From: Paracoccus marinus
GTDB lineage: Bacteria; Pseudomonadota; Alphaproteobacteria; Rhodobacterales; Rhodobacteraceae
NCBI RefSeq assembly: GCF_007018965.1
Contig: NZ_VJYZ01000033.1
Coordinates: forward strand, 434,001-498,000
Reading direction: 5' to 3'
Length of the DNA: 64,000 nt
Below, one piece after another: positions 7,797-28,101 of this stretch. The first letter of the stretch is position 1. The number at the start of each line of letters is the position of its first letter. Made by a program: the position numbers and the translations under genes. The notes below the pieces were generated by a model that saw only the letters and a list, made by a program, of their open reading frames with translations, was not told the origin of the DNA and did no database searches.

Positions 7797-8163
7797 TCCG
7801 CGCCGCGCCTTTCGGGGCGCATCTTTCCTCCCCGGCCGCCCCGGATCCGCCCTGGCCGCCGGCAGTTGTTTTTCCGATCAGGTTTTTTTTGACACCAGGG
7901 CCGGCGCGATCGCGCCGGTCCTGCCGCTTGAGGCGGCACGATGAGGGAAGCTGCGGGTAGGGGAGGTCGCGGTGCAGCGGCTGTCCGGTCGAGCGGTAGA
8001 AGCTAATGGAAAAACGAGGGTGCAGGACACCGCCGCCCACACGCGCCGGCAAAAGGCGGTGCTTGCGAGTGTACTGGGTGTCGTCCGGCACGCTACTTGG
8101 CGGTATAGATCTTAGTACGTTAAGTGTGGCGACACTTGCAGTTATAGGAACCTTTGGCTGTAT
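7797..8163. other. 367-bp gene-free stretch with several hairpins
   Basis: No convincing gene. A small hairpin at 7805-7820 (GCGCC/GGCGC) is a possible terminator for the YdcH gene. Then come T-runs at 7868-7873 and 7883-7890, an 18-bp perfect palindrome at 7901-7918 (CCGGCGCGATCGCGCCGG) and a second hairpin at 7922-7938 (TGCCGC/GCGGCA, loop TTGAG). The composition changes to AT-rich from about 8080 onward. Confidence 0.4.
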
Positions 8164-8481
8164 ATGCGATCTTCATTCCGCAACACGCATGCATTTTATA
8201 TACTTTGTGGATACGTGGTATCCTACATGGTTATTTTTGTCATTACCATCGCTCCGAATTCCAAGTACTTTTTTTCAAAAACGGGCTCCAGTATATTTGA
8301 CGTCGCAGCAGCATTAGCTGTTGTAAATCTTCTGCCTACAATTTTCTTTTTTTTCTGCATATGGGCTCTCATCTTCAACAGAGCTGCTCTACGCAGAGCA
8401 TCTCCGTGGCTTTCACTGGCAGTGGCTGTGGTGCTTGTATTATGGATGATAACCGCAAAATTTTTGTTAGATGGAATGTAA
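8164..8481 (+). CDS. Small hydrophobic protein in an AT-rich islet, unknown function
   Basis: Not recognised. The 105-residue frame predicts three membrane helices, at about residues 10-32, 45-72 and 83-101, with short polar links and a basic stretch RAALRRAS between helices 2 and 3. The region from about 8080 to 8560 is clearly poorer in G and C than everything around it, with runs of T and A and codons rare in the neighbours (TTA, ATA, AAA), so recent transfer is likely. ATG 8164 is the first start after an in-frame TAG at 8113; the ribosome-binding site AGGAA is 13 bases away, which is weak. It may not be translated. Confidence 0.45.
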   Translation: MRSSFRNTHAFYILCGYVVSYMVIFVITIAPNSKYFFSKTGSSIFDVAAALAVVNLLPTIFFFFCIWALIFNRAALRRASPWLSLAVAVVLVLWMITAKFLLDGM

Positions 8482-8659
8482 GTGGCTGACAAAAAACCGC
8501 AATTTGCCAAGCATCAATTTTACACACACGGAGAACCACGCCCGCGAGCCGCGTAATACCGTGCGCCGGCTACCGACTTAGCCTTTCACTCTTGCATGCG
8601 CAGCCGCTCGACCGGTGACAAGCGGTCCTCGCTCCAGCGAACGGCCTTCGCATCTTCGA

Positions 8660-24257: not shown

Positions 24258-25117
24258 CGGCAGGCTGGAACCCCGACGGCCGCCCCCGCAAGCCCGAGTT
24301 GATCGGCATCGGCGCGCAGAAGGCGGGAACCACCTGGCTCAGCCAGATGCTGGCGCAGCACCCGCAGGTCTGGTCGCCGCCGTTCAAGGAAGTCCAGTTC
24401 TTCAATCACCGCTTCGTCCCCGAGCATCGCGCGTGGCTGCCCTGGCATTTCCGCCGCGGCCGGCAGAACATCGCGAAACGCTACGAGGCGAAGGGGCAGG
24501 ACGTGCCCCCCGACCTCGCCGCCTATCTCGACCGCGTGACGCGGGGCGAGATGTTCACCAACCACTGGTACAAGCAGGTCTTTGCGCCCGCTCCCGCCGG
24601 CACCAAGGCGCTGGACGTGACGCCCGAATATTCGACCCTGCCCGACGAGGGCGTCGATTTCGTGGCCAAGTTCCTGCCGCGTGCGAAGTTCGTCTATATC
24701 GTCCGCCACCCCGTGGACCGGGCGATCAGCCAGTTGAAGATGAACCTGTCGCGCAAGAACCGCAGGCCCGCGTCGGTCGATGACTGGCTTGCCGAGGCGG
24801 CGGACCCCGTGCTGTTGGACCGGGGCGACTACGCGACCTACGTGCCGCGCTGGAACGCGCGCTTCGGGGCCGACCGGCTGCTCTACCTGCCCTTCGGGCG
24901 GATCGCGTCCGATCCCTTGGGCCTGATGCGGCAGGTCGAGCTGTTCTTCGGCCTTGCCCCCCACGACTACCGCAACCTCGGCAGCCGCGTCTTCGCCTCG
25001 ACCTCGACGCTGTCGGTCCCGGACGAGGCGCGGGCGGCGCTGCGCGCCCGGATGGAACACCAGTTCGCGTTCCTGGACACCCAGTTCGGCCGCGACTTCA
25101 CCGCCCGCATCCGCTGA
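24242..25117 (+). CDS. PAPS-dependent sulfotransferase family protein
   Basis: 291 residues of the sulfotransferase fold, which moves sulfate from PAPS to an acceptor. The 5'-phosphosulfate loop is QKAGTTWL (26-33) and the 3'-phosphate loop is RHPVDRAIS (155-163), with IVRHP before it. The acceptor cannot be read from sequence; relatives act on carbohydrates, lipids or small molecules. The GTG start at 24242 overlaps the end of rimO by 16 bases; a TTG at 24254 overlapping the rimO stop, with GGGGGA just upstream, is an equally good start. It is therefore likely to be translated from the rimO message. Confidence 0.8.
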
Positions 25118-25154
25118 CCGACCCGTTAGCGGGACGGCCGCCTGCGCGCACCGG

Positions 25155-25199
25155 ACGCCGCGATCCCTTGCGTCGCGGCGCTTCAACTCAGCGCCGCGA
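25155..25199 (+). promoter_or_regulatory. Leader upstream of ettA with mutually exclusive hairpins
   Basis: Three segments can pair in two ways: CGCCGCGA (25156-25163) with TCGCGGCG (25173-25180), 8 bp with a 9-base loop; or TCGCGGCGC (25173-25181) with GCGCCGCGA (25191-25199), 9 bp with a 9-base loop. The middle segment is shared, so only one hairpin can form at a time. No U-run follows either. The ettA ribosome-binding site is about 30 bases downstream. The pairing is seen in the sequence; regulation is an inference. Confidence 0.4.
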
Positions 25200-25238
25200 T
25201 CGCCTAGACAGGCCGCAACCAGCGGACAGGAGCGGATC

Positions 25239-26891
25239 ATGGCCCAACAGTTTGTCTATCACATGGAAGGCGTGTCCAAGGCCTATGGCTCCGGCAAGAA
25301 GACCTTCGAGAACATCCACCTGAACTTCCTTCCGGGCGTCAAGATCGGCGTCGTGGGCGTCAACGGCGCGGGGAAATCAACGCTGCTGCGGATCATGGCC
25401 GGGATCGACAAGGACTTTTCCGGCGAGGCCTGGGCCGCCAAGGGCGCGACCGTCGGCTACCTGCCGCAGGAACCGCATCTTGACCCCGCGCTGAACGTGC
25501 GCGGCAACGTCATGGAGGGCGTGCGCGCCAAGCAGGCCAAGCTCGACCGCTACAACGAGCTGGCGATGAACTACTCGGACGAGACCGCCGACGAGATGGC
25601 GCAGCTGCAGGACGAGATCGACGCCTCGAACCTGTGGGACCTCGACACGCAGGTCGACATCGCGATGGACGCGCTGCGCTGCCCGCCCGATGACGCCGAC
25701 GTGGAAAGCCTGTCTGGCGGCGAGCGTCGCCGCGTCGCGCTGTGCAAGCTGCTGCTGGAACAGCCCGACATGCTGCTGCTGGACGAGCCGACCAACCACC
25801 TTGACGCCGAGACGATCGCCTGGCTGCAAAAGCACCTGATTGAATATCCCGGCACGATCCTGACCGTCACCCACGACCGCTATTTCCTCGACGACATCAC
25901 CAGCTGGATCCTGGAACTGGACCGCGGCCGCGGCGTGCCGTGGGAAGGCAACTATTCCTCGTGGCTGGAACAAAAGGCCAAGCGGCTGGAGCAGGAGGCG
26001 CGCGAGGACAAGGCCAAGCAGAAGTCGATGGAACGCGAGCTGAACTGGATCCGCGCCGGCGCCAAGGCGCGGCAGGCCAAGCAGAAGGCCCGGATCAACG
26101 CCTATAACGAGATGGCGTCGAAATCCGAGCGCGAGAAGATCGCCAACGCCCAGATCGTCATCCCGAACGGCGAGCGGCTGGGCGGCAAGGTGTTCGACGT
26201 GACCGGCCTGAAAAAGGCGATGGGCGACAAGCTGCTGATCGAGGATTTGTCGTTCTCGATCCCGCCGGGCGCGATCGTGGGCGTAATCGGCCCGAACGGC
26301 GCCGGCAAGTCCACGCTGTTCCGCATGCTGACCGGCGGCGAGCAGCCCGACGAGGGCCAGATCGTGGTCGGCGAGACGGTGCAGCTGTCCTACGTGGACC
26401 AGTCGCGCGACGCGCTGAACCCCGAAGCGACCGTGTGGGAGGAAATCTCGGGCGGGGCGGAGATCATCGCGCTGGGCGACGCGACCATTGCGAGCCGCGC
26501 CTATTGCGGCGCGTTCAACTTCAAGGGCACCGACCAGCAGAAGAAGGTGGGGCTGTTGTCGGGCGGTGAACGCAACCGCGTCCACATGGCGAAGCTGCTG
26601 AAATCGGGCGGCAACGTCCTGCTGCTGGACGAGCCGACCAACGACCTTGACGTGGAGACCCTGCAGGCGCTGGAAGCGGCGCTGGAGGACTTCGCCGGCT
26701 GCGCCGTCATCATCTCGCACGACCGCTTCTTCCTGGACCGCCTGTGCACGCACATCCTCGCGTTCGAGGGCGACGCGCATGTGGAGTGGTTCGAGGGAAA
26801 CTTCGAAGCGTATGAGGCTGACAAGGTGCGGCGGCTGGGGCCGGACTCGATCGAGCCGAAGCGGGTGAAGTATAAGAAGTTTACGAGATAA
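25239..26891 (+). CDS. ettA: Energy-dependent translational throttle protein EttA (ABC-F)
   Basis: 550-residue soluble ABC-F ATPase that binds the ribosomal E site and gates the first translation steps according to the ATP/ADP ratio. It has two ABC domains. The first shows GVNGAGKST (40-48), LSGGERRR and LLDEPTNHLD; the second shows GPNGAGKST, LSGGERNR and LLDEPTNDLD. Between them is a long charged linker including EQEAREDKAKQKSMERELNW. Length equals the E. coli protein (about 555). ATG 25239 follows GACAGGAG. Downstream the base composition drops sharply. Confidence 0.94.
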   Translation: MAQQFVYHMEGVSKAYGSGKKTFENIHLNFLPGVKIGVVGVNGAGKSTLLRIMAGIDKDFSGEAWAAKGATVGYLPQEPHLDPALNVRGNVMEGVRAKQAKLDRYNELAMNYSDETADEMAQLQDEIDASNLWDLDTQVDIAMDALRCPPDDADVESLSGGERRRVALCKLLLEQPDMLLLDEPTNHLDAETIAWLQKHLIEYPGTILTVTHDRYFLDDITSWILELDRGRGVPWEGNYSSWLEQKAKRLEQEAREDKAKQKSMERELNWIRAGAKARQAKQKARINAYNEMASKSEREKIANAQIVIPNGERLGGKVFDVTGLKKAMGDKLLIEDLSFSIPPGAIVGVIGPNGAGKSTLFRMLTGGEQPDEGQIVVGETVQLSYVDQSRDALNPEATVWEEISGGAEIIALGDATIASRAYCGAFNFKGTDQQKKVGLLSGGERNRVHMAKLLKSGGNVLLLDEPTNDLDVETLQALEAALEDFAGCAVIISHDRFFLDRLCTHILAFEGDAHVEWFEGNFEAYEADKVRRLGPDSIEPKRVKYKKFTR

Positions 26892-26928
26892 ATAACTTGC
26901 GCGCCTTTTCGTTTGGAAGGATAAAATT

Positions 26929-27660
26929 TTGACACCTGGCTTCAGCGAACGTGCGTTTGAGTTCTGCTATAATCATACATACGTGCAACGAAACGCCGCA
27001 ATCATAGCCACATACCCACATATTCCCTCACAGAGACAGGAGAAAACCCTTGGTTACGACGTTGAGTTTCGCATAACGCAAGGCAATTTCTCCTATATGA
27101 TTTTCATTCAGCACAAGGTTTCACATTACGCAGAGCGGCGAGCAGGTAAAAATGCGGCATTTTACAACCGGTACAACGCACCATACTACCGGTTCCGAGT
27201 TGATAACGATCAGCATCAAAGATTGCAGGAGCTCAGTCGCGCGCGGGGAAATACGTTCTACTGCGCTCCCCTATTTTACTCGCGCAACGATCTGCACGAA
27301 AATTTCCAGAACGACTCCATCATCGATAGCGTTGTTCTTCTTGACCCACTAGACGTCGGACCTGCGGTTGGTCCAAACCACAATATTACTTATGATGCCG
27401 CAGGCGGAAATGCGACAATGCACTCCCAACCACAGAGATTTGAGAGATCCTTCACTGGAGATGTGCTTAAAATTCCCTCGCTGCGAAAGGCTGCGGTCAC
27501 GAGTGAGGAGGTAAGGGCGCAGGCCGACCTTATCTTTGACATATCGGCGAATGTCGACGAGGCGAGAGAGGTGCGGCGCGAGTACGGCGACCTTCCGCGA
27601 GTGCAGCAGGCGCAAATTTTGCTTGGTCAAGTTTATGGCGTGACTTGGCTTATCATCTAA
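26929..27660 (+). CDS. Orphan protein with PD-(D/E)XK-nuclease-like residues, unknown function
   Basis: 243 residues, no family recognised with confidence. The N-terminal half carries a helix with Glu 11, Glu 38 in RQEKTLGYD, Asp 44, and then IQHK with Gln 61 and Lys 63 on the next hydrophobic strand. Spacing and order (E, GYD, then Q-x-K) fit a PD-(D/E)XK core of the kind seen in DUF4365-like and Mrr-like proteins. A Tyr- and Arg-rich segment (NAPYYRFRVDND) follows. Composition is far lower in GC than the neighbours, a sign of transfer. The start is TTG 26929 with GGAAGGAT 5 bases upstream. It is convergent with the HNH gene. Confidence 0.6.
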   Translation: MTPGFSERAFEFCYNHTYVQRNAAIIATYPHIPSQRQEKTLGYDVEFRITQGNFSYMIFIQHKVSHYAERRAGKNAAFYNRYNAPYYRFRVDNDQHQRLQELSRARGNTFYCAPLFYSRNDLHENFQNDSIIDSVVLLDPLDVGPAVGPNHNITYDAAGGNATMHSQPQRFERSFTGDVLKIPSLRKAAVTSEEVRAQADLIFDISANVDEAREVRREYGDLPRVQQAQILLGQVYGVTWLII

Positions 27661-27679
27661 GCATTCAAACCTTATTTAG

Positions 27680-27709
27680 GGTGCGAGCATGAGAAATCCT
27701 CACCGCACC
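27680..27709. terminator. Possible hairpin between the orphan gene and the HNH gene
   Basis: GGTGCG (27680-27685) can pair with CGCACC (27704-27709), and an inner GAG/CTC can add to the stem. It lies just after the stop of the plus-strand gene and covers the stop of the convergent minus-strand gene. No clear U-run; a weak call. Confidence 0.3.
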
Positions 27710-27981
27710 TTCCCCCGCCACCCCGCCGGCCGCTTCCCCACCCAGTCGAAGAACCGCCGCAGCCCCTCGTGTGCCCGTAGCGCCTCCACCGACGCGTAGT
27801 TCCGCGCCAGTTCCGTCTCGCTCAGCGTCTTGTGGATCGTGCGGTGGCAGACGTGGTGCAGCAGCACCGTCTCGCCGCCCTTGCCGCCGCGCAGCTTGGG
27901 GATCAGGTGGTGGCGGCTTTGCGGGACGCCCGGCGGAATCGGGCGCAGGCATAGCGGGCAGGTGGGGTGGTCGTCGGTCAT
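27700..27981 (-). CDS. HNH endonuclease-like small protein
   Basis: 93 residues. CPLC (8-11) is followed by HHLIPKLRGGK (24-34) and LHHVCHRTIH (41-50), the zinc-finger type of HNH/treble-clef nuclease. Small proteins of this form are common in Rhodobacteraceae as single genes; most are annotated only as HNH endonucleases and have no demonstrated role. ATG 27981 starts just before the first CxxC; an upstream start at 28095 would add basic low-complexity sequence. GC content is normal for the genome, unlike the gene it faces. Confidence 0.75.
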   Translation of the reverse strand: MTDDHPTCPLCLRPIPPGVPQSRHHLIPKLRGGKGGETVLLHHVCHRTIHKTLSETELARNYASVEALRAHEGLRRFFDWVGKRPAGWRGKVR

Positions 27982-28101
27982 GGCCGGGACCAACGCCCGG
28001 GCCACCCGCCGGGTGCCATCGCGCTGCTCGGTGATAACGCGCGCGCCTGCGGCCCGCCGTTCAGGACCCTGCCCAGGTCGGGCGGCCCGGGCCAAGCCGC
28101 C

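Follow-up and report, generated by a model that had tools for sequence, protein, structure and literature searches.

A patchily distributed candidate PD-(D/E)XK nuclease family, found in a variable chromosomal slot of Paracoccus marinus and in a subset of Hma operons

The DNA analysed here (the window) is a 64,000-nt stretch of a Paracoccus marinus contig, in which a 243-amino acid open reading frame, intact and free of internal stops, lies between a gene that we take from its sequence to encode an ABC-F (EttA-type) ATPase and a gene for a small HNH-type protein (Table 1). The TTG start is preceded, 6 nt upstream, by the Shine-Dalgarno-like GGAAGGAT, and sets the conserved residue E7 as far into the protein as it is in most relatives, bearing out an earlier note that had described a well-seated, TTG-started gene. 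A search for promoter- or terminator-like sites around the gene found none, nor were inverted repeats found there; the single short two-copy direct repeat detected nearby is located inside the HNH gene.

Table 1. Features of the nuclease-like gene and its flanks, in window coordinates.
Feature	Position	Strand	Basis or remark
243-aa PD-(D/E)XK nuclease-like gene	26929..27660	+	TTG start; family absent from libraries searched
Likely ribosome-binding site GGAAGGAT	26915..26922	+	6 nt 5' of TTG; Shine-Dalgarno-like, from sequence
Invariant E7 codon	26947..26949	+	first helix of model; 83/83 rows
Invariant E38 codon	27040..27042	+	short helix 35-41 of model; 83/83 rows
Invariant D44 codon, predicted metal ligand	27058..27060	+	model and alignment; analogue of DREN D41
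Q61-H62-K63 codons, predicted catalytic QxK	27109..27117	+	model and alignment; analogue of DREN Q60/K62
Variable slot, low-GC islet with nuclease gene	26892..27699	.	ABC-F stop ends at 26891; HNH gene on other side
Left flank, presumed ABC-F (EttA-type) ATPase gene	25239..26891	+	conserved in genus; ORF listed as 24954-26891, from an earlier TTG
Right flank, small HNH-type protein gene	27700..28095	-	Pfam HNH E 0.0016, below curated cut-off

The lower GC content and different codon use for which the gene had been singled out are confirmed: its GC content is 0.503, the window as a whole having 0.704, and 5 of 1266 sliding 732-bp windows reach a value as low; its GC3 of 0.54 compares with 0.89-0.93 for eight flanking genes. 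A third of its codons (82 of 243, 34%) are ones that make up 4% of the codons in the flanking genes. The window holds a second low-GC islet, at 7960-8510, in which positions 8164-8481 (+) may encode a membrane protein of 105 aa.

The region surrounding the gene matched 120 of 121 genomes of the genus (its own included), nearly always through the ABC-F flank, and 40 stretches from other species were compared, 27 of them chosen because both flanks had been seen and 13 others in which the left one had. An HNH flank could be located in 30 of the 40, at a distance of 29 to 2871 bp from the ABC-F gene; six of these 30 slots are shorter than 400 bp, and six others have a GC content of 0.48-0.52, like the islet in the window. 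None of the 40 slots holds the nuclease (tblastn, E 1e-5). In the closest relative (L148, ABC-F flank 95% identical) the slot is occupied by a nucleotidyltransferase and an Rv2179c-like exonuclease according to Pfam, which also recognizes TIR_2 (L150), Fic (L152) and methyltransferase (L160) cargo and has no match for that of L157 and L177. Many longer, high-GC slots carry genes with no recognizable link to defence, a recurring one among them presumably encoding, to judge from its sequence, an outer-membrane-like protein. Part of the slot cargo belongs to protein types familiar from defence and toxin systems and, since slot contents vary between species, the nuclease gene sits where the genus exchanges cargo. 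The two genes in the slot of L148 (L148:1504-2166 (-) with L148:579-1586 (-)) are low in GC, as is a pair resembling them in L175; the exonuclease and nucleotidyltransferase are possibly a defence or toxin pair.

At E <= 10, no model in Pfam, NCBIfam, PADLOC or PHROGs matches the window protein, and 59 members of its family searched against the same libraries at E <= 1 gave isolated matches in one or two members (strongest E 0.0017), so that within these four libraries the family is as unfamiliar as it had first appeared. Among the matches rated as chance were those to PtuA (E 0.014), FANCL_d2 (E 0.009), Teneurin TTR-like (E 0.002), phrog_10585 (E 0.004) and TIGR04094 (E 0.0017), and a sequence search of the PDB gave nothing beyond weak matches to antibodies and other unrelated chains. 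Word searches of open-access papers found no description of either the family or the cargo slot.

Relatives of the window protein are patchily distributed yet widespread. Nine of 390 genomes of the same order carry one, counting its own, after a tenth match (L010), located inside a long unrelated frame, was removed as due to chance; in samples of the phylum and the class, the matching genomes numbered 5 of 398 (own included) and 1 of 385 (its own). A scan of 84,980 species genomes with patterns derived from seven relatives yielded 93 confirmed relatives (80 retained), an undercount because a member could be detected only if it fitted one of two patterns. These belong to the Alpha-, Beta- and Gammaproteobacteria, Myxococcota, Acidobacteriota, Planctomycetota, Verrucomicrobiota, Chloroflexota, Ignavibacteriota and Actinomycetota. 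Plasmid records gave six matches with the window protein as query and eight with each of two relatives, including one from the haloarchaeon Halolamina; phage records gave none, and viral contigs yielded one relative (L025, an IMG/VR contig), with none in further viral-contig scans. The designation of the gene as an orphan holds within the genus, no other genome of which is among the ten matching genomes of the order, but not beyond it. Identity to the window protein is 18-26% for 58 aligned members (full-length and not near-identical, drawn from the 81 loci L025-L105) and 34% for its nearest relative, from Cupriavidus (L011). Of the 67 loci in which protein and flanks were long enough to compare, 58 have a family gene that is lower in GC content than its flanks.

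Eight residues (E7, P30, E38, G42, D44, Q61, K63 and Q95) are invariant in all 83 aligned members, although E7, P30 and E38 were partly selected for, as each search pattern contains either E7 or P30 together with E38. E7 is nevertheless kept in 16 of 16 rows unmatched by the pattern containing it, and E38 in 39 of 39 rows unmatched by the other, while G42, D44, Q61, K63 and Q95 occur in neither genome-scan pattern. (Six broken, cut or odd members, L094, L102, L101, L095, L045 and L037, were omitted from this alignment and from the tree.) An AlphaFold2 model of the window protein, built from a 59-row alignment, has a mean pLDDT of 82 and a pTM of 0.71, with ten-residue means above 90 at residues 1-70 and 91-140 but less confidence in the C-terminal part; that of a relative from Sphingomonas hankookensis (L080) reaches 91 and 0.79. 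The former comprises a helix (7-21), a short helix (35-41), two strands (45-51 and 54-62), a further strand (86-91), a helix (93-106) and a last strand (109-114), with D44 just before strand 45-51 and Q61 and K63 at the end of strand 54-62; D44, Q57 and K59 are arranged in the same way in the L080 model. To judge from the strand limits, D44 would face Q61 across a two-residue strand turn (D44 and Q57 in L080), and the window protein is thereby predicted to present an acidic residue and a (D/E/Q)xK motif on adjacent strands, the arrangement expected of PD-(D/E)XK enzymes. The earlier note had placed E38, D44, Q61 and K63 on adjacent strands; their positions were correct and all four are invariant, but E38 falls on the short helix, and E7 is a further invariant acid that was missing from the list.

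Structural comparison points in the same direction. Foldseek, proposed earlier as a check on such a model, brought PD-(D/E)XK enzymes to prominence in its lists, yet returned no PDB match at E <= 0.001 for either model; nor did any viral model match that of the window protein at this threshold, the best being a DUF4365 protein of Leptospira phage LE1 (E 1.4e-3). VIA-align, in which Z values below 8 may reflect a common arrangement, aligned the window model best with archaeal Hjc (Z 11.1 over 118 aa at 3.9 A, 1gef; Z 11.0 over 119 aa at 2.9 A, 2wcz), followed by I-Ssp6803I (9.2), RecU (8.2-8.8), SPARDA DREN (7.5), DpnI (6.2) and EcoRV (5.1-5.8); the corresponding values for L080 were 10.5 for Hjc (123 aa, 2.9 A; 4tkd), 9.6 for I-Ssp6803I, 7.8-8.7 for RecU and 6.8 for SPARDA. 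The non-nuclease Rep15 (8a4a, Z 8.1 with the window model), standing amid rows of nucleases, was rejected as a lead. The invariant E7, E38, D44, Q61 and K63, the strand order predicted by both models and the VIA-align matches together support the original assignment to the PD-(D/E)XK nucleases, and we consider it very likely that the window protein has both the fold and the active site of such an enzyme.

Among solved structures, Hjc is the best match of the window protein and L080 (Z 9-11 over 117-130 residues). Hjc has an ExK motif, replaced by QxK in 83 of 83 family rows; the window protein is also about twice as long (243 aa, against about 115-130 for Hjc chains), possesses extra C-terminal helices and is the product of an accessory gene in bacteria. 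Mrr and Vsr belong to the same superfamily, but neither their Pfam profiles nor that of DUF4365, also named in the earlier note for comparison, match the window protein at E <= 10 or any of the 59 members at E <= 1. In its catalytic residues the window protein resembles DREN, the nuclease of SPARDA, which is also named a DUF4365 domain and whose catalytic residues D41, Q60 and K62 correspond to D44, Q61 and K63 on the same fold. D41 and Q60 of DREN bind Mg, D41A abolishes both collateral cleavage and defence, Q60A abolishes cleavage and K62A impairs it (PMC12205087). Because no family member matches DUF4365 in Pfam, this is a likeness and not membership; at 243 aa the window protein is, moreover, too short to hold both DREN and APAZ (SPARDA chains have 387-414 aa), and its family has a conserved pattern of its own (P30, Q95, H151, S166). 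What emerges is a new family inside a known superfamily and with a known kind of function.

The surroundings of the relatives were surveyed for defence genes, as the earlier note had suggested. Six loci (L027, L042, L043, L046, L069, L081) have a neighbour similar to the L027 protein, which we take from its sequence to be a type I HsdM; a type IIG enzyme is among the neighbours in L057 and also in L063, a type III methylase in L066, with a UvrD-like helicase downstream, a PifA-like P-loop protein in L072 and L073, and presumably, again judging by sequence, TIR-like proteins in L026, L032 and L036. In L011, the stop codon of an AriA/OLD-like ATPase gene lies 15 nt 5' of the nuclease start codon. 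Many members, however, show no partner: a co-directional ORF of at least 100 aa is found within 60 bp in only 38 of 89 loci. Thirteen defence-type queries matched in 21 of 81 family loci (weakly or partially in L082, L098 and L099), the eight loci that supplied queries having been excluded, and in none of 40 control stretches of 20 kb, taken arbitrarily from related genomes (Fisher p 8e-5), which demonstrates an enrichment but not its size, because the queries were taken from the family's own loci, several matches represent a single lineage (Hma) and the controls, drawn from a smaller number of mostly related genomes, are less diverse than the family loci. None of the 13 partner proteins was found in the other 60 of the 81 loci. 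On plasmid pR132503 of Rhizobium leguminosarum (L024), a relative is located near genes annotated as a reverse transcriptase, an AAA ATPase/UvrD helicase pair and a caspase-family protein, surroundings that are likely a defence island.

One recurrent operon came to light when the neighbouring ORFs were clustered. In L080, the genes on either side of the nuclease encode HmaA (E 0) and HmaB (E 0), with HmaC (3.6e-291) also present, as identified by the PADLOC Hma models, and the nuclease gene has a four-base overlap (ATGA) with each of these two neighbours. Eight of 89 loci place the nuclease between HmaA and HmaB: four have near-full-length matches to all three Hma proteins (L067, L076, L077, L080), two belong to stretches that start inside HmaA (L075, L088), one has a TmtA-like gene between HmaA and the nuclease, with HmaA and HmaC cut by contig ends (L093), and in one HmaB is visible as a short piece only (L068). 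Three further loci (L079, L085, L102) have Hma genes on one side. The Hma rows cluster in the family tree, requiring 4 changes, compared with an average of 9.7 after shuffling. The window copy groups with L011 only (SH-aLRT 99, on a long branch), a search for further members of its clade having added none, and it lies far from the Hma clade, so that a role in Hma cannot be transferred to it; it has no Hma genes alongside, is located outside any Hma locus and does not count as an Hma component, and HmaB has no match in its genome at E 1e-50. The idea that the nuclease is a fixed part of Hma was likewise rejected, the family HMM having found a member in none of six Hma loci among 292 genomes of the order. 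Hma was introduced as a system of three proteins, a helicase, a methylase and an ATPase, in PMC8565338. A later study (PMC12839542) renames it Type-1 BR, centred on DUF499, and describes a helicase with a C-terminal REase in 79% of taxa and, in the remainder, other nucleases near or within the locus, including PD-(D/E)XK nucleases, among which the present family could be found.

Given that some relatives lie beside or inside anti-virus systems, the window gene is probably a small, transferable piece of immunity. Our preferred reading, to which we assign a probability of about 0.65, is that it is a horizontally acquired, modular defence nuclease. The protein would be a metal-dependent PD-(D/E)XK nuclease, from a family outside the libraries searched, in which D44 and Q61 are predicted to hold the metal and K63 to serve as the catalytic lysine, E7 and E38 lying nearby. 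Taken as a whole, the family probably supplies bacterial defence with a portable nuclease module. Some members are embedded in larger systems, either between the Hma helicase and methylase genes or next to genes of the restriction-modification, OLD/AriA-like or PifA-like kinds, and others, the window copy included, stand alone as what is probably horizontally acquired cargo in a chromosomal slot. The target is most likely invading phage or plasmid DNA. We regard a role in defence as probable for the family; whether the lone window copy provides defence autonomously is evenly balanced.

An alternative that we consider unlikely, though it deserves weight, is that the protein is a suicide effector of the DREN type, which a sensor would activate to degrade nucleic acids indiscriminately and so stop the cell, the window copy being either a stray or able to sense for itself, perhaps through its C-terminal helices 192-236. 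The ATPase gene immediately upstream of the nuclease in L011 speaks for it, but the window gene adjoins no sensor; nothing in the window's genome matches the L011 ATPase at E 1e-5 either, although an empty answer from such a search is uninformative. The alignments with SPARDA chains speak for this alternative, but Hjc and I-Ssp6803I match better than DREN, and neither is known to act collaterally. The D-Q-x-K triad is nonetheless common to the window protein and DREN, for which PMC12205087 reports collateral activity, and stand-alone endoDNases have been proposed in PMC12839542 as back-up suicidal effectors.

The earlier note had left open whether the gene encodes a defence effector or a repair nuclease. 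The neighbourhoods and the variable cargo slot favour defence at the level of the family, and a repair or recombination enzyme, acting in the manner of Hjc on branched DNA during host replication or repair, now seems improbable: Hjc is indeed the best match among solved structures, with RecU not far behind, but the sparse occurrence within the order, the low GC content, the variable slot, the defence-type neighbours in part of the family and the Q in place of the E of the Hjc ExK motif all speak against such a role. A selfish, free-standing endonuclease that spreads itself into intergenic slots in the manner of a homing enzyme would account for a single gene in such a position and for the I-Ssp6803I alignments of both models, but is scarcely credible given that none of the 40 other slots of the genus holds the nuclease, that some relatives are integrated in defence operons and that a search of its surroundings found no inverted repeats.

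The preferred reading, a modular defence nuclease acquired by horizontal transfer, can be extended to an undescribed plug-in enzyme of immunity that would serve as a fourth Hma subunit, would partner restriction systems as well as OLD- and PifA-like ATPases, and would form a one-gene system, traded through the slot beside the ABC-F gene; we offer this extended version tentatively, as somewhat less likely than not. The family draws its interest from its wide distribution, its presence inside some Hma operons and the chromosomal slot in which it is found. The likely defence repertoire gains a nuclease family that is widespread and has a fixed signature in its active site, a subset of Hma systems gains a fourth protein that is open to deletion and testing, and the cargo slot of one genus becomes a place in which to seek other defence-type genes.

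The gap between HmaA and HmaB holds other small proteins as well. In another species of the genus, a 265-aa protein encoded there (L115:7058-7852 (+)) has a similar order of motifs (SE..FE, QE...G.D, FQFK, FY..P) and aligns weakly with the family (hhalign E 0.0053, probability 6.9), of which it is possibly a distant cousin. In a genome of the same taxonomic family, the corresponding position is occupied by a small protein with a VQAK motif (L117:4285-4884 (-)), and the gap may be a general socket for nucleases.
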